A stretch of 34,554 nt of DNA from Saprospiraceae bacterium (lineage in GTDB: Bacteria; Bacteroidota; Bacteroidia; Chitinophagales; Saprospiraceae). This document shows positions 1 through 31,365 of this stretch, piece after piece. Under the pieces are notes generated by a model. That model saw only the letters and a program-made list of their open reading frames with translations, was not told the DNA's origin and ran no database searches. Every line of letters begins with the position of its first letter. The first letter of the stretch is position 1. Location: positions 1 to 34,554 of the forward strand of contig JALSKB010000006.1 in assembly GCA_026989035.1 (NCBI GenBank). The letters run 5' to 3'. A program made the translations under genes and the position numbers.

Positions 1-3000
1 GATGCGGATGCGTATCTGTACGGTTGGATCGACTTCAACGGCAACGGCGTATTTGATGCGTCGGAGGAAGTGATAGCCGGCTTCCAGGTAGGCAGCGGAG
101 TGGTAGGCAACCAGGTGAGCGGCAACGAGAGCTTTACGATCAGCGTGCCTGTGGATGCGAAGTGCGGTACGACCTATGCGCGCTTCTACATCCACGACGA
201 TGCGGGCATAGGAGCTACGGGCTTGTACGGAGACGACGGCGAGGTGGAAGACTACGCCTTGGAGGTATTGAGCACGGTGGTAGTAGATGCGGGAGCGGAT
301 CAGTCGATTTGTTCGGGTGGCAGCACGACGGTGAGTGCTCAGGCTTCGGGAGGCACGGCACCGTACACGTATGAGTGGAACGAGGGCTTGGGCGTAGGCC
401 AGAGCCATGTGGTAAGCCCTGTGGTAACGACGACGTATGTGGTAACGGTAACGGATGCGAACATGTGCAGCGCAGTGGATACGGTGGTGGTGAGTGTGAG
501 CGAGTTGAATGCTCCGATTATCCAGACGGATTGCAATGACAACGGCACGCCCTCGGATCCGTCGGATGACACCTTCACCTTTACGATAGAGGTGAATGGG
601 ACGAACACGGGAGCTACGTACACGATAAGTGGCGATGCAGGTGTGATAGCGAATCTGCCGTTCAACTCGCAGCAAGGGCCGTTTGGTCCGTATGCGATAA
701 CGGGCGGAGATTTGAACATCACGGTAACGATGGACGAGGAGCCGATGTGTAGTGTAGATGCGGTAGTAGAAGCTCCGGCGAGCTGCTCGAACGAGTGTCA
801 TATTGATGGTGATCCCATGGTCGTGGCGACTTGCTATGACAATGGTACGCCTACGGATCCGAGTGACGATTACTACGAATTTACGATTGTAGTAACAGGT
901 TCAAATACCGGAGCGACTTATTCGATCAGTTCACCAAACTTTGGTCCGATTACCGGCCTACAGTATGGTCAGGTTGAGGGTCCGTTTGGTCCGTTCAACA
1001 TTTTGACGGTAGGTGATCAGAATATTCTGATTCAGGACGAAGACGATCCGCAGTGCCAGCTGACTTATACGGTAACAGCGCCACAGGCTTGCTCCGATCA
1101 ATGTGAGATTTTGCAAGTGAACTACGAAGTGACTTGTGATGACAACGGTACGCCCAGTGATGACACGGATGATGTTTATTCCTTTGTGATCGAAGCAACA
1201 GGAGTAAATACCGGTCAGACCTTCTCCATTACGGGAGACGTAGATACGAGTGGTCTTGCTTATGGCATCCAGCACACGATACCCGGGCCGTTTGATGTAG
1301 GTACAGATTTGAATATCACGATTGTCGATGATGATTCTGCGAGCTGTACCTACGATGTCGTTATTGAGTCGCCGGCACCTTGTTCGAGCACTTGTCAGTT
1401 GGACGATCCCATTGTAGAAGTGAAGTGCAACGACAACGGTACGCCTTATGACGATTCGGATGACATTTTCTATTATCGCTTGACGGTAACCGGCGTATTC
1501 TTGAGCAACTGCTACAACATTACCGGTGGCGACACGCAAACGGGAGTGCCTTATGGTGAGTCCGATTGGTTTGGTCCGTTTGATATTTCGGCCGGAGGTT
1601 TTGATCTGTTGATTCAAGATTGCGACGATGCAGGATGCTCTACTACGGTAAGCATTGTGCCGCCTGAGCCTTGTTCTTTGAATTGTCAGATCATTGATGT
1701 CGTCATTACGGATGTATGTAGTGACAATGGTACGCCTCAGGATCCGGATGACGACTATTACCAGTTCAACATTTATGTTTCTGGTCAAGACGTATCTGCT
1801 TCAGGCTACCATGTAAGTGGCGATTATGTGGCCAACGGTTTGCCGTATGAAGTAGTGAATGGGCCTTACGGAAACTTTGCTCCGGGCTCGACTATTACGC
1901 TGACGGTAACGGATGCCGATGATGCCGGTTGTGAACAGACAGTGAACTATACTTTCCCGACAGCCAGTTGCTCGAATCAGTGTTCGTTGAACTTCCCTGA
2001 GATTGTAACTTCTTGCGACGACAATGGTACGCCTTCCGATCCGACGGATGATACGTATTCTTATACGGTCTTCCTTACGGGAAATGCCACGGGAAGCACG
2101 TATTCGATTTCGGGTGACGACACCCAAACAGGCTTACAGTATGGCGTAGTAGAAGGGCCTTTTGCTGTGGGTACGCCTATTGGCACCAACTTGCAATTGA
2201 CCTTTACAGATGATCAGGATCCGAACTGTCAGATCACGTATGAGGTGGTATCGCCTGCAGCTTGTTCCAACACTTGTGCCATAGATCCGAATCCGCAGGT
2301 GCAAGTGAGTTGTAACGACAATGGCACGCCGGCAGATCCCTCGGATGACATTTGGTACTTTACTTTGCTGGTAACGGGTAGCAACACCTCTACCACCTAC
2401 TCTTTGTCGGGCCCGAATCCGGTTGGTGCTCAGGGTCAGAACTTGCCTTATGGCATAGAGACGAATGACATTGGTCCGTTCTCTATCCAAGGGCAGCAGC
2501 AGATTGCGATAGTCATTACAGATGATCAGGATCCGAACTGTACTTTATCGCTTGTGATTGAAGCACCGGATGCCTGTCCTTCCGATTGTGCGCTGTCTGA
2601 TCCGTTCTTTGCCTTTGAGTGCGACGACAACGGCACGGCTGATGATCCGACTGACGACTTCTACCATGTACGGATTTACGTCGATGGGGTGAACGTTAGC
2701 GGCACATATACGGTAACGGGAGGCTTCTTTGCTGCCAATCTGCCCTATGGCCAGCTCAATGGGCCTATTGGCACGATTAACCCGGGTGAGATTGTCTTCG
2801 TGGACATTACGGATGATGCTTATCCGAGCTGTAATTTGCAAAACGTCGCTGTGATTGCTCCGACAAATACCTGTTCCTTTGAGTGTGCTTTGAATGAGCC
2901 GCTCATAGCTACGGATTGCGATGACAATGGTACGCCTGATGATCCTTCCGATGATCAGTACTATTTCACCATTACCGTAACGGGCAACAGCACGGGCAGT

Positions 3001-6000
3001 GGTTATGCCATCAGTGGTGACTTGAACGAGCCGGGCCCCTGGCCTTATGGACAGGCAGTTGGACCTTTCGGACCTTATGATTTGGATGTGGTCTTGAATC
3101 TGGATATCCAAGATGTGGACCACGAGACTTGCAGTACTTCGGTAACTGTTACGGGTCCCGAAAACTGTATTGAAGCCAATGGCAGCATTGGAAATTACGT
3201 CTGGGAAGATTTGGATGGCGATGGCATTCAAGACGCCAATGAACCGGGCATCCCGGGTGTTACGGTAGTCTTGACGGGTACCACAGTACTTGGCGATCCG
3301 GTTATGCTGACTCAGACGACCGATGCAGATGGCTACTATTTGTTTGACAACTTGCCTCCGGGTACGTACAAGGTAACCTTCCCGACCATACCCGGTTATG
3401 CCATGACGATCCCCAATGCACCGGGCAGCAATGATGCCAATGATAGCGATGCTGATCCGGCTATGGCTGGTATGACGGAATTCATCGTCTTGTCTAGTGG
3501 AGAGGATTATTTGGATTTCGATGCCGGTTATTATCGGTACGCGGCTTTGGGTAACTACGTATGGCACGACATCAACGGCAACGGTTTGCAAGATGCCGGA
3601 GAGCCGGGTATAGGAGGTGTACAAGTGGTCTTGGTAGGTTTTGATGGAGCTGGTAATCAGATTACTCAGGTAACCTTTACCGATCCCGATGGCTACTACT
3701 TGTTTGACAACTTGCCTCCGGGCACGTATAACGTAACTTTTGATACGCCGGATGGAGGCTTCGTGACCACTTGGCTTGACCAAGGTGCGGATGACACCAT
3801 TGACAGCGATGCCGACCCGGCTATGGGCAACATGACTATTAACGAGCAACTTACCTCGGGTGAGGAAAACCTCACTTACGATGCAGGCTTCTACATTCCT
3901 GCAACCATAGGAGACTTTGTCTGGTCAGACAACGACGCCGACGGCATGCAGGATGCTGATGAGCCGGGCATTCCCGATGTAGAGGTGGCTTTGATTGGTT
4001 TCAGCAACATTGGTCAGCAAGTAGTGCTCTTCACCACTACGGATGCAGATGGCTACTACTTGTTTGACAACCTGGCTCCGGGCAACTACTTCCTGGCCTT
4101 TACGACGCCGGCCGGTTATACGCCCACGCAGCAGGATGCTACCGGAGACGATACCAACGATAGCGATGCCGATCCATTCTCCGGATTTACCGCTACGGAA
4201 GAGTTGCTCTCCGGAGAGACCAACCTGACGTATGATGCCGGTTATATCCCGGGTGAAGAACCGCCGGCTTCGGTTGGTGATTACGTCTGGGAGGATACCG
4301 ATGGTGATGGCATACAAGATGACGATGAAAACGGTATCCCGGGTGTTTGGGTATATCTCTATCCTTGTGGAGATCCGAATAACCCCATCGACAGCACCCA
4401 GACGGATGCCAACGGTCATTACGCCTTTACCGGATTGGAGCCGGGTGATTACATGATCCAATTCGTTTTGCCGGAAGGCGACTACAGCTTCACCACGCCT
4501 AATGCAGGCGATGATGCAGTGGATAGCGATGCCGGCAACGGTGGATTTACCGACTGCTTTACACTGACGCCGGGAGAGAATAATGAAGATGTGGATGCCG
4601 GTATAGTACCTTGTGGCCCGATGGGAGAGTTGACTTGTGTGGGTGATGTTCAATTGCCGGTGGATGAAAACTGCCAGTTGGTTATTGATCCCTTGAATTT
4701 TGTAGAGGCTACGGGTAGCTGTTACACGGGCTTGATTGCCGTGGTGACGGATGCCGATGGCAATATCCTTGGAGAAGTGATTTCCTCTGACTATCTCGGA
4801 GAAGAAATTACGGTAACCGTGATAGATACCCTCTCAGGGCAGTCTTGTTCTACCGGGGTAACGCTGATAGACAATACGCCGCCTGTTATAGATTGTCCTA
4901 CCGATACCTTGGTTGTCGGCTGTAAACTCCTGCTGGATGAACTGGACGTCCCGGTAGCTTATGACAACTGTACAGAGGTCGTTGCTGTCAATCTAATTGA
5001 TCAGATTTTCTTGGATGGCGATCCCTGTGATGACGGCATGATGGTGGTCGAGCAGGTTTGGGTCGCTGTGGATGAATGGGGTAATGAATCCGATCCTTGC
5101 ACGCGCATCGTGCAGGTAAGCCGTCCTGAGCCGGTCTTCCCACCGGATGTAAGCTGGACTTGCGAGGAATATGCCCAGTGGCCTCAGATTATCGAGCCAG
5201 GGCCTTACAAGCCGGAAGATCCCTGCTGTAGCGGCTCCGGTTTCCCGGATGTGCAAGGTGCTTATTGCAATTACGATGTGAACTATACGGATGAGATTGT
5301 GCCCACTTGTGGTGATAACTTCATGATCATTCGTACCTGGACTATCACGGATGATTGCAACGGCAATGTCATTACCCACGAGCAAATCATTGAGATTGTG
5401 GATGAGGTGCCGCCTCTGGCAGAAGTAGAGGATGTGCTCATCGAAGTGGATGGCGAATTTGAGTGTGAAAGCACGGGACCCTTGCCCGGCCCGACAAACA
5501 TCTCGGACAATTGTTCGGATGAATGGACGGTGCAAATCATGACGCCTTTAGGTGAGGCTATCTACGTCAATGGCGTCGATGGAGCCGATGGTGGCTATAT
5601 CCCGAATCCGGGCTTGTCGGTCGGAGAGCACGAAGTGGATTACATCATTACCGATGCCTGTGGTAACGATACCACCCTTACCGTAACGGTTACCGTAACG
5701 GAAAGTACACCGCCTGTGGCCGTTTGCCAGGATGCCCTTACCGTAGAACTGCAAGGTAGCTTGCAGGAGTTCCCTGCTTCCTTCTTCGACAACGGCAGCT
5801 TTGACGGTTGTTGCTTTGATGAGGTGCAGGTACGTCGTATGGATCCGGGTTGTGGCGCTCCCAACATGGACTTTGGGCCTTTAGTAACCTTCTGTTGCAG
5901 CGACATCGACAATGGGCCGGTGATGATTGCCCTGAGGGCATTGGATTGCTCCGGCAACTTCAGTGAGTGCCAAATGGAAGTTACCGTTACGGGTGATGTC

Positions 6001-8409
6001 CTTTCGGTAAATGAGGTCATGGTTCCGGAAGATACCGTCATCACTTGTGAAGAGTACTCGTATTACGTCGCTCCCTGGTTGAATATCGGCGAGTACGGTA
6101 TTCTGGATGCTTACGGTATCCTTACGGCAGACGACGGCTCTTGCGTAGAAGTTGCTGAAATGATTGTCGATGTGGATATTGACATGTGTTTTGAAGGTAC
6201 GATAACCCGCACTTGGATTCTCAGCGATGGTCAGACGACCTGTACGCAGGTGATTTACGTCCATCAGGAGTCTGACTGGGTAGTGTCCTTCCCGCAGGAT
6301 ACCATGGTAAACTGTAACGACCTGCCTTTGGCTTACGGCGGAGAGCCGGAGATCTTCTTTGACGAGTGCGAGCTGATAGCCACTTCGTATGAGGATCTGG
6401 TTCTTACGGCAGTAGATGATGCTTGTTACAAGATTGTTCGCACTTGGATTGTGGTCAACTGGTGCTTGTTTGAAGACTTTGGCTACGACGCTTACCAAGA
6501 GCTTTCCGAGGCTGAGGTAGGCATAGACTTCGACGGTGATGGCGATATGGACGACCACACCTTCCAGGAAGGCGTTACGGTTGAAGGTGAGGCCGACGGC
6601 TACATCGCTTACACGCAAATCATTAAGGTAATCGACAACGAAGCTCCGGTACTGTTTATCTCCGACTTGCAGCTTTGCACGACGGATGCCGAAAACTGCA
6701 TGGGAACCATTGAGTTGCCCTTGCCGGACAGCGTTCAGGATTGCAGCGATGATTTGACCTACTGGGTCTTCACCAACCTGCCCAACGGCGATGGCTTTGG
6801 CCCGTACTACGATGTGCCGGCAGGCTCCTACTTTGCCCTGTATTCAGCAACGGATAACTGCGGCAACGTCGGTTCGAAGTACGTGAACATCGAGCTTATT
6901 GATTGTACGCCGCCTCAGGCCCAGTGTATTAACAATGCCACGGCTAACATCAACAGCCAAGGTGTAGCCAATGTCTTGGCCATAGCCCTTGACGGAGGTA
7001 GCTATGACAACTGCTCGGATGTATTGAACTTCTCCTTCTCGGAAGACATCTCCGATCAGATCATGACCTATAGCTGTGTCGATCTGGGTACCTATACCGT
7101 AGATGTTTGGGTGACGGATGAATCGGGTAACCAGAGCGTTTGCCAGACCCAGCTCTCCATTGTGGACAGCCAAGGCAATTGCGACGGTCTGATGAACTTC
7201 TCCGGTACGGTGGCCCGTGAAGATGGCGATGGCCTGCTCAATGCCGAGATTTACGTGAACAACGACATGAGTGATATGACTAATGAAGACGGTCAATATG
7301 CGGTTGCCCTCTACAGTGGTTATGACTATACCGTCAAGCCGTACAAAAACGACGACTTGCTCAATGGCCTTTCTACTTTGGATATCGTATTGCTCAAGCA
7401 ACACGTGTTGGGTATCAACCCCTTGAGTTCACCTTACCAGCTCATTGCTGCCGATGTTGATCGTTCGGGTTCTGTTACTACGTTGGATGCAGTATGGCTG
7501 AAGAAAGTCGTTCTGTATCTCGAAGACAAATTCCCCAACGACAACACTTCTTGGCGCTTTGTGCCGGCGAGCTTTGTCTTCCCCAATCCGGCTAATCCCT
7601 GGGTGGATGGAGGCTTCCCCGAGGAGTTGAATTTCTACCCCTTGAACGGAGCTGTAAGCAACGCCGATTTCGTAGCCATTAAGATCGGAGACCTCAACGG
7701 CACGGCTCTGACGAACTTCACCGGTGCTACAGGTCAAGAGCGTTCTTCAACAGAGCCCTTGCCCTTGCACATGCCCGATTTGGAATTCCGCAAAGGCGAT
7801 CTGCTGGAAGTTCCGGTGCGTCTGGATGAAATTTCTCTCTTGGGCTTGCAATTTTCCATGAAATTTTTGGAAAATAAGTTGGAATGGGTATCTTTGTTGC
7901 CGGGAACTATGGAGGAATCCGATTTTAGCTTGGAAGAGCTTGCCGAAGGCCTGGTCATGGCCAGTTGGAGCAAGGAGAAGCTCGTCCGGCTGAAAGAAGG
8001 ACAAATCCTTTTTACCTTGGTTTTCGAAGCGGTCGAAGACGGTCGCTTGAGTGAGGCTTTGAAGTTTGATTCGCAGTATCTCAAGCCGGAGCTTTACTCG
8101 GAAGCGACTGAAGTACATGAGCTGTACTTGCAATTCGACTCAAGGGAGGATCGGCTCTTTGCACTTTATCGCAATGCACCTAACCCTTTCTCTGGCAAGA
8201 CCAGGATAGGCTTTAGCTTACCTCGGGCTGAAGAGGTTTACTTCACCATTACTTCTGCCACAGGAGAGGTGTTGCGCCGATGGAGTGCTGTTTATGAAGC
8301 CGGTTACAACGAAATTGAACTGGATATGTCGGGCTATTCCGGCGTGTACTATTACCGCATAGATGCAGGCGACTATACCGCTACGCGTAAAATGGTCGTC
8401 TTGCGTTAA
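1..8409 (+). CDS. Giant T9SS-secreted surface/adhesin-like protein, 5' truncated
   Basis: The frame is open from base 1, so the gene starts upstream; about 2,802 residues are visible. Domains in order (numbered from the window start): a GEVED domain (about 1-90), a PKD/SprB-like Ig module (about 93-168), nine Asp-rich Cys-containing modules beginning C-x-DNGTP (about 177-1057), four SdrD_B modules of the form GNYVWxDxDGDGIQDxxEPGIPG (about 1060-1537), a long Cys-rich HYR/Ig-like region (to about 2395), a dockerin-like segment (about 2440-2507, with DVDRSGSVTTLDAVWLKK), a cohesin-like beta domain (about 2584-2710), and a C-terminal T9SS type A sorting domain (about 2720-2802) starting NAPNPFSGKTRIGFSLP. 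Known T9SS substrates with such C-termini are exported across the outer membrane and often anchored to the cell surface. Many Asp loops suggest calcium-stiffened stalks. A role in adhesion or gliding is inference. It stands alone with its own terminator. Confidence 0.9.
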   Translation, partial: DADAYLYGWIDFNGNGVFDASEEVIAGFQVGSGVVGNQVSGNESFTISVPVDAKCGTTYARFYIHDDAGIGATGLYGDDGEVEDYALEVLSTVVVDAGADQSICSGGSTTVSAQASGGTAPYTYEWNEGLGVGQSHVVSPVVTTTYVVTVTDANMCSAVDTVVVSVSELNAPIIQTDCNDNGTPSDPSDDTFTFTIEVNGTNTGATYTISGDAGVIANLPFNSQQGPFGPYAITGGDLNITVTMDEEPMCSVDAVVEAPASCSNECHIDGDPMVVATCYDNGTPTDPSDDYYEFTIVVTGSNTGATYSISSPNFGPITGLQYGQVEGPFGPFNILTVGDQNILIQDEDDPQCQLTYTVTAPQACSDQCEILQVNYEVTCDDNGTPSDDTDDVYSFVIEATGVNTGQTFSITGDVDTSGLAYGIQHTIPGPFDVGTDLNITIVDDDSASCTYDVVIESPAPCSSTCQLDDPIVEVKCNDNGTPYDDSDDIFYYRLTVTGVFLSNCYNITGGDTQTGVPYGESDWFGPFDISAGGFDLLIQDCDDAGCSTTVSIVPPEPCSLNCQIIDVVITDVCSDNGTPQDPDDDYYQFNIYVSGQDVSASGYHVSGDYVANGLPYEVVNGPYGNFAPGSTITLTVTDADDAGCEQTVNYTFPTASCSNQCSLNFPEIVTSCDDNGTPSDPTDDTYSYTVFLTGNATGSTYSISGDDTQTGLQYGVVEGPFAVGTPIGTNLQLTFTDDQDPNCQITYEVVSPAACSNTCAIDPNPQVQVSCNDNGTPADPSDDIWYFTLLVTGSNTSTTYSLSGPNPVGAQGQNLPYGIETNDIGPFSIQGQQQIAIVITDDQDPNCTLSLVIEAPDACPSDCALSDPFFAFECDDNGTADDPTDDFYHVRIYVDGVNVSGTYTVTGGFFAANLPYGQLNGPIGTINPGEIVFVDITDDAYPSCNLQNVAVIAPTNTCSFECALNEPLIATDCDDNGTPDDPSDDQYYFTITVTGNSTGSGYAISGDLNEPGPWPYGQAVGPFGPYDLDVVLNLDIQDVDHETCSTSVTVTGPENCIEANGSIGNYVWEDLDGDGIQDANEPGIPGVTVVLTGTTVLGDPVMLTQTTDADGYYLFDNLPPGTYKVTFPTIPGYAMTIPNAPGSNDANDSDADPAMAGMTEFIVLSSGEDYLDFDAGYYRYAALGNYVWHDINGNGLQDAGEPGIGGVQVVLVGFDGAGNQITQVTFTDPDGYYLFDNLPPGTYNVTFDTPDGGFVTTWLDQGADDTIDSDADPAMGNMTINEQLTSGEENLTYDAGFYIPATIGDFVWSDNDADGMQDADEPGIPDVEVALIGFSNIGQQVVLFTTTDADGYYLFDNLAPGNYFLAFTTPAGYTPTQQDATGDDTNDSDADPFSGFTATEELLSGETNLTYDAGYIPGEEPPASVGDYVWEDTDGDGIQDDDENGIPGVWVYLYPCGDPNNPIDSTQTDANGHYAFTGLEPGDYMIQFVLPEGDYSFTTPNAGDDAVDSDAGNGGFTDCFTLTPGENNEDVDAGIVPCGPMGELTCVGDVQLPVDENCQLVIDPLNFVEATGSCYTGLIAVVTDADGNILGEVISSDYLGEEITVTVIDTLSGQSCSTGVTLIDNTPPVIDCPTDTLVVGCKLLLDELDVPVAYDNCTEVVAVNLIDQIFLDGDPCDDGMMVVEQVWVAVDEWGNESDPCTRIVQVSRPEPVFPPDVSWTCEEYAQWPQIIEPGPYKPEDPCCSGSGFPDVQGAYCNYDVNYTDEIVPTCGDNFMIIRTWTITDDCNGNVITHEQIIEIVDEVPPLAEVEDVLIEVDGEFECESTGPLPGPTNISDNCSDEWTVQIMTPLGEAIYVNGVDGADGGYIPNPGLSVGEHEVDYIITDACGNDTTLTVTVTVTESTPPVAVCQDALTVELQGSLQEFPASFFDNGSFDGCCFDEVQVRRMDPGCGAPNMDFGPLVTFCCSDIDNGPVMIALRALDCSGNFSECQMEVTVTGDVLSVNEVMVPEDTVITCEEYSYYVAPWLNIGEYGILDAYGILTADDGSCVEVAEMIVDVDIDMCFEGTITRTWILSDGQTTCTQVIYVHQESDWVVSFPQDTMVNCNDLPLAYGGEPEIFFDECELIATSYEDLVLTAVDDACYKIVRTWIVVNWCLFEDFGYDAYQELSEAEVGIDFDGDGDMDDHTFQEGVTVEGEADGYIAYTQIIKVIDNEAPVLFISDLQLCTTDAENCMGTIELPLPDSVQDCSDDLTYWVFTNLPNGDGFGPYYDVPAGSYFALYSATDNCGNVGSKYVNIELIDCTPPQAQCINNATANINSQGVANVLAIALDGGSYDNCSDVLNFSFSEDISDQIMTYSCVDLGTYTVDVWVTDESGNQSVCQTQLSIVDSQGNCDGLMNFSGTVAREDGDGLLNAEIYVNNDMSDMTNEDGQYAVALYSGYDYTVKPYKNDDLLNGLSTLDIVLLKQHVLGINPLSSPYQLIAADVDRSGSVTTLDAVWLKKVVLYLEDKFPNDNTSWRFVPASFVFPNPANPWVDGGFPEELNFYPLNGAVSNADFVAIKIGDLNGTALTNFTGATGQERSSTEPLPLHMPDLEFRKGDLLEVPVRLDEISLLGLQFSMKFLENKLEWVSLLPGTMEESDFSLEELAEGLVMASWSKEKLVRLKEGQILFTLVFEAVEDGRLSEALKFDSQYLKPELYSEATEVHELYLQFDSREDRLFALYRNAPNPFSGKTRIGFSLPRAEEVYFTITSATGEVLRRWSAVYEAGYNEIELDMSGYSGVYYYRIDAGDYTATRKMVVLR
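532..3170 (+). repeat. Nine tandem ~99-residue Asp/Cys-rich modules inside the giant surface protein
   Basis: Modules begin near 532, 832, 1132, 1426, 1717, 2014, 2308, 2620 and 2917, a period of 291-312 bases. Each starts C-[ND/Y/S]-DNGT(P), continues with xDxxDD, then an aromatic-rich strand, a G-x-TYxISG-like strand, a G(P)FGPF-like turn, a second Asp cluster ending in Cys, and a CSxxC-like close. The protein pattern is well kept, while the DNA differs at many synonymous positions, so the copies are old or under diversifying pressure. I do not recognise a named family for this module. Confidence 0.85.
3180..4610 (+). repeat. Four tandem SdrD_B-like modules
   Basis: Modules begin near 3187, 3550, 3907 and 4276 with G(N/D)(Y/F)VW-x-D-x-(D/N)-(G/A)-(D/N/G)-G, then IPGVxV and DADGYYLFDNLPPG. 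This is the SdrD_B/collagen-binding B type fold first known from staphylococcal Sdr proteins, calcium-binding in that family, here serving presumably as rigid spacers in the surface protein. Confidence 0.88.
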
Positions 8410-8519: not shown

Positions 8520-8532
8520 GCCTTTCGGCAAA
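8520..8532 (-). repeat. Iterated 13-mer TTTGCCGAAAGGC, copy 1
   Basis: Exact copy on the minus strand in the spacer between the surface-protein terminator and the PolX-like gene. The core GCC-GAAA-GGC can fold as a tiny hairpin with a GAAA loop. See the finding on the eight copies. Confidence 0.9.
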
Positions 8533-8649
8533 ATGTTTGCACGGCAGACTGAACAACATTGGCTATGGCTGATTATACCCATGGCGAAGTGTTTTGGGAG
8601 GCGTCAGCCTCCCAAACTCTCTATATTTTGCTCATTTTCGAGTTGTAAA

Positions 8650-8683
8650 TACCCCAAACCATTTCGGTTTGGGTATATCTTTG
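8650..8683 (+). promoter_or_regulatory. Inverted repeat abutting a TATCTTTG -7 element before the PolX-like gene
   Basis: TACCCCAAACC (8650-8660) and GGTTTGGGTA (8666-8675) are inverted around ATTTC with one bulged base, and the Bacteroidota -7 motif TATCTTTG follows directly at 8676-8683. The start codon is at 8688, so a start point 5-7 bases after the motif would give a leaderless or nearly leaderless mRNA. No TTG is seen at the -33 position; the repeat occupies it and may be an operator. Confidence 0.55.
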
Positions 8684-8687
8684 TGAA

Positions 8688-10343
8688 ATGATGGACAATC
8701 GCAGTATTGCTTCGGCTTTTCGAGAATTAGCCCGCTTGATGGAATTGCAGGGGGAGAATCCCTACAAAATTCGCTCCTATGAAAGGGCTTATCAGACTTT
8801 GCGCAATTTGCCTCGCCCTTTGGCTCAGATGAATCGTCGGGAGTGGCTTGCTATTCCCGGCGTAGGATCGGCCATAGCTGATAAAATCGGCCAGCTGTTG
8901 GAAAGCGGTACGATGCAAACTTTAGAGCGCTACCGAAAAATGACTCCACCGGGCTTGCGGGAATTGTTAACTATCAAAGGTATGGGGCCCAAGAAGTTGC
9001 GCACCCTGTGGCTGGAGCTGGGCATTACTGACCCTGGAGAATTGTTGTATGCCATTCAGGAAAACCGCTTACAGACCATTAAGGGATTTGGAAAAAAGAC
9101 GCAAGAAGATTGGAAGAACAAATTGGTTTATTATCTGCACAGTAAGGATCAGTTCCTCTATGCTTCTTTGGAAGCTCCGGCTCAAGCCTTGCTGCAGTAT
9201 TTACATCGCTTGTATTCAAATGCTCCGCTTTCTTTAACGGGTACCATTTGCCGAAAGGCCATAAGTCCGCGTCGTATAGATTGCCAGATCGGTTCTATGG
9301 AGAAGCCTCGAGAGCTTTTTGGCGATGAATTGCGTTTTCTTTCGGGCGATGAGGTGTTTATGGAAGCCATGTGGTTGGGGGAATATCCCGTAGGCCTTTA
9401 TTTTTGTGAGCCTGGCGAATTCGGGTCTCAATTGTTTTTGCACACGGGAGATGAAGCTTTTGTTTCGGCTTTCGCCAAACGAAACCCCGGTCAATCTTTT
9501 CGGGGACTTGCTCGGGAGGAGGAAGTTTTTGCTCGGACGGGTTTGCCGTACATTCTTCCAGAGTTGAGGGAGGGTTCTTATTTTCTGGAGCGCATTGCGG
9601 AAAGTGGGGAAGTTCCCAAACTTTTGGAGTGGGAAGATTTTAAGGGAGTTGTCCACGTGCATACGACCTACAGTGATGGAGCAGCCAGCTTGCGCCAAAT
9701 GGCAGAGCGCGTTCGGGAAATGGGCTTTGAATACTTGGGCGTGAGCGATCATTCTCAGGCTGCGTTTTACGCCAACGGCATGAAGCCTGCTGATGTGCGG
9801 AGGCAACACGAAGAGATTGATCGATTGAATGAAGAAATGGCTCCTTTTCGGATTTTTAAGGGCATAGAATGCGATATTCTCAACGATGGTCGTTTAGATT
9901 ATGAGGATGATTTGTTGGCAACTTTTGATTTTGTCATTGCCTCGGTACATTCCAATCTTCGCATGGATGAGGAGCAGGCTACGCGGCGTTTGCTCAGGGC
10001 TGTGAGGCATCCGGCGACGACCATTTTGGGGCATCCTACGGGGCGTTTGTTGCTCAGCCGGCCGGGTTATCCCGTGCGAATGGAAGAGCTTATTGCTGCT
10101 TGTGCTGAAGAGGGAGTGGCTATAGAGGTCAATGCCAACCCCTATCGTTTGGATTTGGATTGGCACTGGATTCCTTTGGCTTTGGAAAGAGGCGTTAAGT
10201 TGATGGTAAACCCCGATGCTCACAGCCTTGTCGGTTTGGAAGATATGCGTTATGGTTTGTATGCAGCTCGAAAGGGAGGGCTTACTGCAGCAGATTGTCT
10301 CAATTGCCTTTCGGCAAATGAGTGGCTTGCTGCCATGGGATAG
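8688..10343 (+). CDS. PolX-family protein: degenerate DNA polymerase X region fused to a PHP phosphoesterase domain
   Basis: 551 residues, near the usual 570 of bacterial PolX. The N-terminal 8-kDa/HhH region is present (KIRSYERAYQTL; IPGVGSAIADKI; IKGMGPKKLRTLW). The palm is aberrant: where family members have GSLRR...DxD, this has GTICRK...RRID, with Arg196 in place of the first catalytic Asp and only D198 kept; the third Asp site reads VGLYF (Gly236). The C-terminal PHP domain is complete: HVHTTYSDG (H323, H325), SDHS, GIECDI, VHS, GHPTGR and NPDAHS supply the metal ligands. Bacterial PolX works in base-excision repair with a PHP 3'-5' exonuclease and 3'-phosphatase activity. Here nuclease or phosphatase activity is plausible and polymerisation doubtful (inference). 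The start is ATG 8688 or ATG 8691. The gene contains two copies of the 13-bp iterated word. Confidence 0.9.
   Translation: MMDNRSIASAFRELARLMELQGENPYKIRSYERAYQTLRNLPRPLAQMNRREWLAIPGVGSAIADKIGQLLESGTMQTLERYRKMTPPGLRELLTIKGMGPKKLRTLWLELGITDPGELLYAIQENRLQTIKGFGKKTQEDWKNKLVYYLHSKDQFLYASLEAPAQALLQYLHRLYSNAPLSLTGTICRKAISPRRIDCQIGSMEKPRELFGDELRFLSGDEVFMEAMWLGEYPVGLYFCEPGEFGSQLFLHTGDEAFVSAFAKRNPGQSFRGLAREEEVFARTGLPYILPELREGSYFLERIAESGEVPKLLEWEDFKGVVHVHTTYSDGAASLRQMAERVREMGFEYLGVSDHSQAAFYANGMKPADVRRQHEEIDRLNEEMAPFRIFKGIECDILNDGRLDYEDDLLATFDFVIASVHSNLRMDEEQATRRLLRAVRHPATTILGHPTGRLLLSRPGYPVRMEELIAACAEEGVAIEVNANPYRLDLDWHWIPLALERGVKLMVNPDAHSLVGLEDMRYGLYAARKGGLTAADCLNCLSANEWLAAMG
9247..9259 (+). repeat. 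Iterated 13-mer TTTGCCGAAAGGC, copy 2
   Basis: Exact copy inside the PolX-like gene, read in frame as part of I-C-R-K-A, precisely where the degenerate palm motif lies. Confidence 0.9.
10306..10318 (-). repeat. Iterated 13-mer TTTGCCGAAAGGC, copy 3
   Basis: Exact minus-strand copy near the 3' end of the PolX-like gene, read as C-L-S-A-N, so the DNA word is used in the antisense direction here. Confidence 0.9.
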
Positions 10344-15081: not shown

Positions 15082-17217
15082 ATGGCAAGAGACTTAAAAT
15101 ACACGAGAAATATCGGCATTGCCGCGCACATTGATGCTGGCAAGACGACTACTACGGAGCGCATTCTCTATTACACCGGTTTGAGTCACAAGATAGGGGA
15201 AGTGCACGACGGTGCCGCTACCATGGACTGGATGGAGCAGGAACGCGAACGGGGTATCACCATTACCTCAGCCGCGACCAAAACGTCTTGGAAGTGGAAA
15301 GACCAAGAGTACACCATCAACATCATTGACACGCCAGGGCACGTGGACTTTACCGTGGAGGTGGAGCGTTCTTTGCGCGTCTTGGATGGTGTCGTGGCTT
15401 TGTTCTGTGCTGTATCCGGGGTGGAGCCGCAGTCTGAAACGGTATGGCGTCAGGCCGATCGTTATCGGGTGCCCCGTATTGGTTTTGTCAACAAGATGGA
15501 CCGCTCGGGAGCTGATTTCTTTGCCGTGGTAGAAGATGTAAAGGAAAAGTTGGGAGCGAATGCCGTGCCTCTTCAAGTGCCGATAGGTGCTGAGGAGCGC
15601 TTCAAGGGGGTAGTTGATTTGATTACCAATGAGGCCATCATCTGGAATGAGGAGGATAAGGGTATGACTTATGAGGTGGTTCCCATACCTGAGGATTTGC
15701 AGGATACCGTTGCGAAGTATCGCGAGAAGTTGTTGGAAAGCGTAGCCGAGTATGACGAGTCTTTGATGGAGAAGTATTTTGAGGATCCCGATTCCATCAC
15801 TGCCGACGAGATCCGTGCTGCCATTCGTGCTGCCGTCATTGATATGAGCATTACGCCCATGATGTGCGGTTCTGCTTTTAAGAATAAAGGCGTGCAGGCC
15901 GTATTGGACGCCGTGTGTGCCTTTATGCCTTCTCCGGTTGATATTGAAGCCATAGAAGGGACTAACCCGAAGACGGGAGAAAAGGAAATCCGCAAGCCGG
16001 ATGAAAAAGAGCCGTTTTCAGCACTGGTTTTCAAAATCGCTACGGATCCCTATGTAGGGCGTTTGGCCTTTATGCGGGTATATTCCGGTGTTTTGGAAGA
16101 GGGTAGTTATGTTTTAAATACACGCACAGGCAAAAAAGAGCGTGTATCTCGCCTTTATCAGATGCACTCCAACAAGCAAAACCCCATCAAGGTGGTAGGT
16201 GCCGGTGATATTGCGGCTGCTGTGGGCATGAAAGATCTGCGTACGGGCGATACCATTTGCGACACCAATCATCCCATTGTTTTTGAAAGTATGACTTTCC
16301 CCGAGCCGGTGATTGGCGTAGCCGTGGAGCCTAAAACGCAAAAAGATTTGGATAAGTTGGGCATGGCTTTGGCCAAGCTGGCTGAAGAAGACCCCACCTT
16401 TAAGGTGCGTTACGACGAGGAGACGAATCAAACCATCATCAGTGGTATGGGCGAGCTGCACTTGGAAATCATTGTGGATCGCCTTAAGCGGGAGTTTAAG
16501 GTAGAGTGTAACCAGGGACGTCCGCAAGTCAATTACAAAGAAGCGCTTACGGCCAGTGTCGTTCACCACGAGCGTTTGAAGAAGCAGACAGGTGGTTCCG
16601 GATTGTTTGCAGATATGCAATTTGAGCTGGGGCCGGCTGATCCCGAGTTTTTGGAGAGTGATGAGTTTAAGAGTGGTAAAGAGCGCCTGCAATTTGTCGA
16701 TGAGATTCGCGGAGGAGCTATTCCGCGGGAGTTGATAGGGCCTACGCGCAAAGGTTTTGAATCCATGATGGACAACGGCATTTTGGCCGGCTATGCCATA
16801 GAGAGCATGAAAGTGCGCCTCTTTGACGGAGCGACTCACCCCGTGGATTCCAAACCCATAGCCTTTGAGCTTTGTGCTAAAGAAGGTTTTAAAGCGGCTG
16901 CGCCCAAGTGCAAGCCCGTTTTGCTGGAGCCTATCATGAAGCTCGAAGTGGTTACCCCTGAAGAGTTTGTGGGTAACATCATTGGCGATTTGAACCGCCG
17001 TAGAGGTTTGCCGAAAGGCCAGGAATTGCGCACCGGAGGTGCTGTGGCTATCCAGGCTGAAGTTCCGCTTTCCGAAATGTTTGGTTATGTGACGGATTTG
17101 CGCACCATCAGCTCGGGCCGGGCAAGCTCAACCATGGAGTTTTCTCACTATGCCGAGGCTCCTGCAGGTGTAGCTAAAGAGGTGATTGAAAAGGCCAAGG
17201 GTGAAGTAAAAGTATAA
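15082..17217 (+). CDS. fusA: Translation elongation factor G
   Basis: 711 residues. EF-G is the GTPase that drives tRNA-mRNA translocation and, with RRF, ribosome recycling. The G domain has AHIDAGKT (15-22), RGIT (57-60, switch I), DTPGH (83-87) and NKMD (137-140); domains II-V follow, with the domain IV stretch ending [17 protein letters not shown] and the domain V motif [29 protein letters not shown]. The start at ATG 15082 ([13 protein letters not shown]) is the family start; the frame extends to 15031 without support. It carries one copy of the 13-bp word (17007-17019), read L-P-K-G. A GC-rich hairpin follows the stop. Confidence 0.97.
17007..17019 (+). repeat. Iterated 13-mer TTTGCCGAAAGGC, copy 4
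   Basis: Exact copy inside fusA in the domain V coding region, read as (G)-L-P-K-G, a different frame from the copies in the PolX-like gene and map. Confidence 0.9.
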
Positions 17218-19139: not shown

Positions 19140-19152
19140 TTTGCCGAAAGGC
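19140..19152 (+). repeat. Iterated 13-mer TTTGCCGAAAGGC, copy 5
   Basis: Exact copy in the rplD-rplW spacer, extended to TTGCC-GAAA-GGCAA, a 5-bp stem with a GAAA loop, six bases after the rplD stop. Confidence 0.9.
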
Positions 19153-23136: not shown

Positions 23137-23149
23137 GCCTTTCGGCAAA
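23137..23149 (-). repeat. Iterated 13-mer TTTGCCGAAAGGC, copy 6
   Basis: Exact minus-strand copy in the rpsQ-rplN spacer, 19 bases after the rpsQ stop; on the mRNA it would fold as UUGCC-UUUC-GGCAA. Confidence 0.9.
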
Positions 23150-29009: not shown

Positions 29010-29843
29010 ATGATTTATTACAAGACACCCGAAGAAATAGCTCTGATGCGGGCCAGCAATTTGTTGGTCTCTCAGACATTGGCCCATCTGGCCCAAACGC
29101 TTCGTCCGGGTATGAGCGGAGCCGATATCGATCGCGAAGCGGAAACCTTCATCAGGGATCATGGGGCAGAACCGACCTTTAAAGGGTACCATGGCTTCCC
29201 TGCCACGCTTTGTGTGTCGGTCAATGAAGCCGTGGTGCATGGCATCCCTTCAAAAGAACAAGTGTTTAAAGAAGGCGATGTGATTTCCATCGATTGCGGT
29301 GTTTTGCTCAACGGTTATCACGGAGACAGTGCTTACACCTTTGCGTTGGTGGATACTCGCGAGGAAGTGTTGCAATTGTTGCGGGTGACGAAAGAATCGC
29401 TGTATCGGGCTATTGATCAGGTGCGCGTGGGTAACCGCTTAGGGGATATTGGATTTGCCGTGCAAGAATTTGCCGAAAGGCAGCACGGATACGGCATTGT
29501 TCGCGATTTGGTGGGCCACGGCATAGGTCGAAATTTGCACGAAGAGCCCGAAGTGCCCAACTACGGGCGTCGAGGCCGAGGCATAAAACTGCAGGAAGGC
29601 CTGGTGATAGCCATCGAACCGATGATTAACCTGGGTGCTAAAGAAGTGCGCCAACTGCCCGATGGCTGGACCATCGTGTCTAAAGATAAAACGCCTTCAG
29701 CTCATTACGAACACGTAGTGGCTGTTTTTAAAGAAGGCCCTGCCATACTCTCGGATTTCTCCATCATTGAGGAGGCAGAGCGCCAAAACGACTACTTACA
29801 CGAGGTAAAAGTACTTCGTGCGGTGAAGGACGAAATGCCATGA
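29010..29843 (+). CDS. map: Type I methionine aminopeptidase
   Basis: 277 residues. MAP removes the initiator Met from nascent proteins. The five metal ligands are visible: the two Asp in ISIDCG and GYHGDSAY, the His in GHGIGRNLHEEP, and the Glu residues in AIEPMIN and YEHVVAV. A C-terminal extension of about 38 residues after the last ligand makes it slightly longer than the E. coli enzyme (264). It carries one 13-bp word (29469-29481), read F-A-E-R. No terminator follows; the infA promoter lies in the next spacer. Confidence 0.96.
   Translation: MIYYKTPEEIALMRASNLLVSQTLAHLAQTLRPGMSGADIDREAETFIRDHGAEPTFKGYHGFPATLCVSVNEAVVHGIPSKEQVFKEGDVISIDCGVLLNGYHGDSAYTFALVDTREEVLQLLRVTKESLYRAIDQVRVGNRLGDIGFAVQEFAERQHGYGIVRDLVGHGIGRNLHEEPEVPNYGRRGRGIKLQEGLVIAIEPMINLGAKEVRQLPDGWTIVSKDKTPSAHYEHVVAVFKEGPAILSDFSIIEEAERQNDYLHEVKVLRAVKDEMP
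29469..29481 (+). repeat. Iterated 13-mer TTTGCCGAAAGGC, copy 7
   Basis: Exact copy inside map, read F-A-E-R, in yet another frame from the copies in fusA and the PolX-like gene. Confidence 0.9.
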
Positions 29844-31314: not shown

Positions 31315-31365
31315 GAGCTTGCCTCAATAGCGAGCTCGTTTTTTATGCCTTTCGGCAAATTTTTT
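31315..31365 (+). terminator. Two successive terminator-like hairpins in the rpsK-rpsD spacer
   Basis: GAGCT (31315-31319) pairs with AGCTC (31333-31337) and is followed by GTTTTTT; then TGCC-TTTC-GGCA (31346-31357) is followed by AATTTTTT. Both stems are short, so any effect would be partial attenuation before rpsD. Confidence 0.4.
31347..31359 (-). repeat. Iterated 13-mer TTTGCCGAAAGGC, copy 8
   Basis: Exact minus-strand copy in the rpsK-rpsD spacer, followed on the plus strand by a run of six T, giving it a terminator-like look. Confidence 0.9.

Follow-up and report, generated by a model that had tools for sequence, protein, structure and literature searches.

What does a PolX protein do once the active site of its polymerase has gone, and what made that site go? 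The question is raised by a gene in a 34,554-nucleotide stretch of DNA (the window) from a Saprospiraceae bacterium, which forms contig 6 of a genome (G000) of 3.12 Mb and 97.2% completeness. An earlier sequence-only reading described an intact frame for a PolX-like protein that had lost its polymerase site and kept its PHP domain, and raised the possibility that an iterated 13-mer had contributed to the loss. The frame is indeed open at full length, from 8688 to 10343 on the forward strand, and encodes 551 amino acids; the coordinates of the parts of this gene refer to the same strand unless stated otherwise. The protein combines an 8 kDa HhH domain, a Pol beta-like core and a C-terminal PHP domain, as bacterial PolX of the PolX1 type do. 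The N-terminal 8 kDa-type HhH domain spans residues 2-75 (8691..8912; Pfam HHH_8, 80.9 bits against a cut-off of 30) and a second HhH domain residues 91-144 (8958..9119; Pfam HHH_5, 39.5 bits against 27). They are followed by a degenerate palm (residues 158-247, 9159..9428) and a PHP domain with its metal ligands kept (residues 318-545, 9639..10322), the limits of both being our own choice. Pfam places its PHP match at residues 323-483 (44.4 bits, cut-off 26.4); a thumb match is present, under its cut-off, and the NCBIfam PolX model PRK08609 scores 380.8 bits, under its cut-off of 426. By whole-length phmmer comparison, the closest solved proteins are the PolX of Deinococcus radiodurans (2w9m, the best PDB sequence match, E 7e-90) and Thermus thermophilus. 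A search of the genome for a second, canonical PolX found none, with a single HHH_8 match genome-wide. The nearest relative at the locus among the contigs searched is a Saprospiraceae MAG (L002), with a PolX of 77% identity over residues 70-548. Downstream of the window gene lie a DUF1573 protein and then a UbiA-family protein, and the L002 gene is trailed by the equivalent pair (UbiA-type 82% and DUF1573-type 74% identical to those of the window).

In canonical PolX the palm carries a D-D-D triad, which in the window PolX reads R196-D198-G236. In the alignment, window positions 196, 198 and 236 lie over D-D-D of T. thermophilus PolX and A-E-E of D. radiodurans PolX; the latter agrees with the triad printed for that enzyme in PMC9226535, which checks the alignment. 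On these columns, two of the three palm Asp are replaced exactly as the sequence-only reading had it, the first by R196 (codon CGT, 9273-9275) and the third by G236 (codon GGC, 9393-9395), with the middle D198 (codon GAT, 9279-9281) kept. No intact Asp is seen elsewhere in the alignment with the T. thermophilus and D. radiodurans enzymes, and because the window row runs gap-free from GTICRK through D198, no neighbouring Asp takes over. GTICRK (G185-K190, 9240..9257) is the counterpart of the GSxRR motif. Its letters had been read correctly, in place of GSLRR, but the second Arg is kept as R189 and only the first is changed, to C188. R189 is the counterpart of Pol beta R183.

The changes extend beyond the triad. 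The dNTP-binding motif is degraded to LHTGDEAFV (9438..9464), compared with YFTGSKEHN-like sequences in the D-D-D rows: the Tyr of the steric gate has become L251, GS has become GD, the Lys has become E256 and the Asn or Ser V259. The palm span from 185 to 236 counts 52 residues against 57-64 in nine D-D-D rows, a small deletion of five residues relative to T. thermophilus, and the fingers span from 237 to 290 counts 54 residues against 67-72 in the same number of rows, 13 fewer than in T. thermophilus; both spans follow our own residue limits, which may differ from the domain limits of PMC9226535.

To place the window PolX among its relatives, we used 49 PolX rows: the window, L002 (a Saprospiraceae, whose membership in the sampled family is assumed) and 47 genomes of the window's family. 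Twenty-eight of these (L057-L084) come from the 30 best matches, of which L056, the window itself, and L085, with an internal stop, were left out. The other 19 were hand-picked, four as rich in the 13-mer (G132, G138, G028 and G075) and 15 to cover lower identities. L090 (G081, same genus) contains just the PHP part and stands outside the alignment. From 54 loci, L011, L050, L053 and L055 were dropped as partial or PHP only, and the set of remaining loci differs between alignments. None of the 49 rows retains D-D-D. An acid stands at position 196 in one row, at 236 in two and at 198 in 42, and L002 itself reads R-T-R where the window reads R-D-G. In the other Bacteroidota rows the triad is altered in all 26, with an acid at 198 in just 14.

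Could the window PolX nevertheless still be a DNA polymerase, working through other acids or through D198 alone? The middle acid is kept, here and in those 42 rows, and residual metal binding by the palm through D198 is conceivable from the sequence. Weak activity was also once reported for D. radiodurans PolX with its A-E-E triad (cited in PMC9226535). However, according to the same source that activity was not reproduced and was ascribed to possible contamination, and one triad substitution abolishes the polymerase activity of Bacillus subtilis PolX (PMC9226535). The window protein lacks two metal ligands, the steric gate, both Lys and Asn in its dNTP motif and, relative to T. thermophilus, 13 fingers residues, and we hold polymerase activity to be very improbable. 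Palm and fingers would rather form a predicted Pol beta-like fold; with one metal-binding Asp left of three, a lost dNTP motif and reduced fingers, it is probably incapable of DNA synthesis.

Such proteins have been described. Prostova et al. 2022 (PMC9226535) report noncanonical PolX whose main cluster is formed by Bacteroidetes and Deinococcus-Thermus, name Saprospiria among the classes with truncated palms, and list as features a substituted triad, palm deletions, substituted dNTP-binding residues and a fingers deletion, the palm and fingers deletions occurring in many members, not all. All four are found in the window PolX, the palm deletion being small. Judged by its sequence, the window PolX is therefore an ordinary member of an already described class, and the core of the sequence-only reading, a lost polymerase site next to a retained PHP domain, fits what has been published for that class (PMC9226535). 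A 2026 survey (PMC12926913) again describes PolX polymerase sites as conserved less well than PHP sites. In assays reported there, the D. radiodurans and D. gobiensis enzymes had no polymerase activity and a strong Mn2+-dependent 3'-5' exonuclease. They resemble the window PolX in HhH domains, degenerate palm and fingers, intact PHP, altered triad and full-length fold, and differ in reading A-E-E and A-R-E, respectively, where the window has R-D-G; the D. radiodurans protein is 33-34% identical to it in the fold alignment. Bacteroidota noncanonical PolX, from the main cluster of PMC9226535, share with it the altered triad, Leu or Met at position 424 (see below) and shortened fingers. Canonical PolX (T. 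thermophilus 3au2/3au6, B. subtilis) have the same domain order, PHP ligands and basic PHP DNA path, but the triad, dNTP motif and fingers length are intact there and lost or shortened in the window protein. Stand-alone PHP proteins, YcdX (1m65) for example, have only the PHP fold in common with it, being without HhH, palm and fingers. An AlphaFold2 model of the window PolX (45-row alignment) has a mean pLDDT of 95.1 with the palm folded, and superposes on T. thermophilus PolX with DNA (3au6; Z 44.9, rmsd 5.2, 539 residues, spanning 3..551), on D. radiodurans PolX (2w9m; Z 40.8, rmsd 10.8, 473 residues) and on YcdX (Z 27.7, rmsd 1.8, 217 residues).

The PHP ligands had been described as visible in full, and the alignment bears this out: H323, H325, D330, D354, H355, E394, H421, H449, D510 and H512 are all present, and E480 is invariant across the alignments. 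The HHHEHHEDH metal site is intact as H323, H325, H355, E394, H421, H449, E480, D510 and H512, where E480 is our assignment of the seventh letter, by order. Across the 49 rows the ligands are complete in 48; the exception, L087, stops early at the end of its contig and misses the last ones. In B. subtilis PolX, R469, R474, N498, R503 and K545 guide DNA into the PHP domain and are needed for nucleolysis (PMC6616362). The corresponding R453, R458, N482, R487 and K529 are kept in the window protein, as mapped by the constant offset of 16 seen at six metal ligands and not by alignment.

One residue at the edge of the PHP active site differs. B. subtilis F440 is predicted to detect AP sites, and its F440A variant loses exonuclease efficiency 32-fold and AP-endonuclease efficiency 480-fold (PMC6616362). 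By comparison, the window has L424 (9957..9959) at this site, and in altered Bacteroidota rows the position holds Leu in 71 and Met in 4, that is 75 of 75 with no aromatic residue, whereas D. radiodurans PolX retains Phe. Among D-D-D rows, 14 of 17 have Phe and the other three Q, Q and T, so that the aromatic is no absolute requirement for a canonical PolX; the Q or T rows are PolX of Planctomycetota (L043, L042 and L047). A text search of PMC9226535 returned no mention of this exchange of aromatic for Leu. Given L424 in place of F440 and the losses of the F440A variant, PHP activity in the window protein, exonuclease included, could be weaker than in Deinococcus. Its AP-endonuclease activity should not be assumed, being uncertain and perhaps weak. 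An exonuclease III-type xth match is present in the window's genome (L108, G000:C123:4780-5532), so PolX is not the sole candidate AP endonuclease there, although this in itself shows nothing of PolX function; a search for nfo in the same genome gave no match at E <= 0.001.

How old the polymerase loss is, and whether the palm still matters, can be approached from the relatives. Of the 150 family genomes sampled, 140 have a PolX match, the window's included, and 48 of these are represented in the alignment; in G020 the match covers residues 3-148 only, the HhH part. In a 70-row tree, a single branch separates all 62 altered rows from the 8 D-D-D rows (UFboot 96, SH-aLRT 82); the altered rows form a clade only in a tree rooted across that branch from them. 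The window PolX groups among the altered Bacteroidota rows, and the single Deinococcus row forms a long branch of unsure placement. In a MAG labelled Bacteroidia (HBSIN02; L031 5001-6704) the PolX is canonical (D-D-D) and clusters with an Ignavibacteriales protein, which would mean either a transfer or a wrong label. The PolX match of G106 (L085) contains one internal TAG.

The simplest alternative for the palm is that it is a decaying remnant without function, so that only PHP and HhH count. It is the least conserved part of the protein, with a mean pairwise identity of 28% against 68% for PHP over the 49 rows, compared with 41% and 52% in seven canonical rows. Position 196 is more variable than most palm columns (rank 80 of 90). 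By parsimony on the 70-row tree pruned to 49, it underwent 28 class changes and 236 underwent 22, with 6 at position 198, a palm column median of 19 and none at eight PHP ligands. In G084 (C48), G088 (C30) and G089 (C62) the PolX match is split into HhH and PHP pieces within a single open frame of 545-595 amino acids, which indicates a palm too diverged for matching. On the other side, the palm is present in all 49 rows, though about 16 residues short in L079; G185 is retained in 49 of 49 rows and R189 in 46, in addition to the acid at 198, and the palm is a high-confidence part of the model. Between the window and L002, palm pN is 0.232 and pS 0.689 (pN/pS ~0.34), against 0.086 and 0.637 in the PHP domain, with pS near saturation in both. 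Palm pN lies well below pS, hence changes continue to be selected against, less strictly than in PHP, and on these sequence comparisons the palm remains under purifying selection. We consider a functionless remnant unlikely; the palm is probably not useless, and a scaffold or end-holding part is the simplest reading.

The 13-mer had been proposed as a possible cause of the loss. One copy of TTTGCCGAAAGGC lies at 9247..9259, an exact match that encodes I187-A191 and overlaps GTICRK, with its equivalent at 355-367 of L002; a second, on the reverse strand, lies near the 3' end of the gene (10306..10318) and is also found at the equivalent site in L002 and L011. The sequence-only reading had placed a copy in the region of the first loss and raised its insertion or fixation as a contributor. 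The copy does overlap the GTICRK motif, but it covers neither lost Asp codon: 13 bases separate it from the codon of R196, and G236 is far away. Among the loci compared, of which L011 and L090 stop short of the site, the exact word at GTICRK is found in L002 and in the window's own copies alone, and C188 is likewise confined to the window and L002 among the 49 rows, a coincidence of word and changed motif that would speak for the 13-mer. However, it fits the PolX alignment without length change, and the triad is also lost in the 47 rows that lack the word there and in the 26 further Bacteroidota rows. In the PolX of G132, a genome with 861 copies, it sits elsewhere in the gene and in a different frame (FAERR; L086 665-677), an indication that the reason for its presence is to be sought in the DNA and not in the protein. 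As all 49 rows, and 26 Bacteroidota rows besides, have lost the triad, the 13-mer is not the cause, and we give next to no credence to its having broken the polymerase site.

Conservation of the two gene copies between the window and L002 is suggestive. At fourfold-degenerate sites the two genes are 39% identical (155 sites), but identical stretches of up to 35 bases without the word occur in the same gene, so that conservation of the copies would not be proof. The window holds eight exact copies in all (8520-8532, 9247-9259, 10306-10318, 17007-17019, 19140-19152, 23137-23149, 29469-29481 and 31347-31359) and its genome 660, against 0 for a backward-read control. In the family, at least one copy is found in 84 of 150 genomes and none in 66, and the word is common in a few genera (G132 861, G081 390, G138 322, G028 278, G037 167 and G075 103 copies). 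Apparently this is a highly iterated word specific to a lineage, of the kind that HIP1 represents in cyanobacteria. A literature search for the 13-mer gave only a match that is by its title on an unrelated subject, and in a search for HIP1-type iterated palindromes and Bacteroidetes, all of the matches listed concerned cyanobacteria or gene transfer, as far as titles and abstract starts tell.

If the protein does not synthesize DNA, which pathway does it serve? For noncanonical PolX in general, a role in Ku/LigD-type end joining has been proposed, and altered PolX co-occurs with NHEJ in Bacteroidetes (PMC9226535). In the sampled family, Ku is present in 39 of 140 genomes with a PolX match and in 0 of 10 without (Fisher p 0.064, kinship ignored). 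The window's genome also encodes a stand-alone LigD-type primase-polymerase of 288 amino acids (L109, G000:C8:31288-32031; frame L111 3750-4616), which scores 209.6 bits for ligD_pol, just under the cut-off of 214.7, and 215.9 bits for Pfam LigD_Prim-Pol. A ligD_pol match occurs in 49 of 150 family genomes, mostly in frames of ~600-900 amino acids; short frames of ~280-340 are a minority, for example in G000, G081, G132 and G028, and were also noted in G026, G041, G061, G069, G008 and G020. Against such a role, profile searches of the 97.2% complete genome gave no match for Ku (PF02735), LigD_N or the NHEJ ligase domain, and Ku is absent from 101 of the 140 genomes of the family that have a PolX match. 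No ligase was found in the two frames flanking the primase-polymerase. Some end-joining-like pathway in the organism is conceivable, but given these negative results for the genome, and with Ku missing in 101 of 140, PolX is unlikely to act mainly in Ku-dependent end joining, and we rate it as quite improbable that the window PolX serves it.

We therefore regard the window PolX, with high confidence, as a noncanonical, polymerase-dead PolX that would act as a nuclease. The two HhH regions would bind DNA, as expected from the family, and PHP would remove nucleotides from the 3' end as a Mn2+-dependent 3'-5' exonuclease, an activity shown in the Deinococcus members; a nuclease role that uses the HhH regions, as the sequence-only reading suggested, fits the published class. 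The palm would probably serve as a scaffold holding the DNA end. The polymerase loss is old, common to the altered Bacteroidota rows and unrelated to the 13-mer. The likely role would be to clean up 3' ends during DNA repair, preferably excision or recombination repair, rather than Ku-dependent end joining; this role is our preference and is unproven. The window PolX warns against annotating such genes as DNA polymerases.

To the published picture, the comparison adds two testable observations. Within the family the dead site has retained its middle acid, whereas the two outer positions have drifted, and no altered Bacteroidota row examined has an aromatic at the PHP position. Hence, what was found in Deinococcus may apply only in part to Bacteroidota, which together with one other phylum forms most of the published cluster (PMC9226535). 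As a tentative and rather doubtful extension, Bacteroidota PolX might differ from the assayed Deinococcus enzymes in being a 3'-end trimmer with little AP-endonuclease activity, independent of Ku and with the palm as a pseudo-active site. After the polymerase loss, the AP-site-sensing PHP aromatic would have been swapped for Leu or Met; in the window's family, one palm acid and GxxRR may have been kept for DNA-end holding or nucleotide sensing; and in the window's genome the stand-alone LigD-type primase-polymerase could fill gaps instead of PolX.

Two further observations concern the upstream side of the gene. Just ahead of the PolX start codon sit two perfect hairpins (8593-8616 and 8653-8673), one with 10-bp arms and a 4-nt loop and the other with 8-bp arms and a 5-nt loop, and they can cross-pair, as 7 bases of one are complementary to the other. 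Positions 70-8409 encode a 2779-amino-acid repeat protein that has SdrD_B-like domains and a match to dockerin; its C-terminal secretion-tail match falls slightly below the cut-off.
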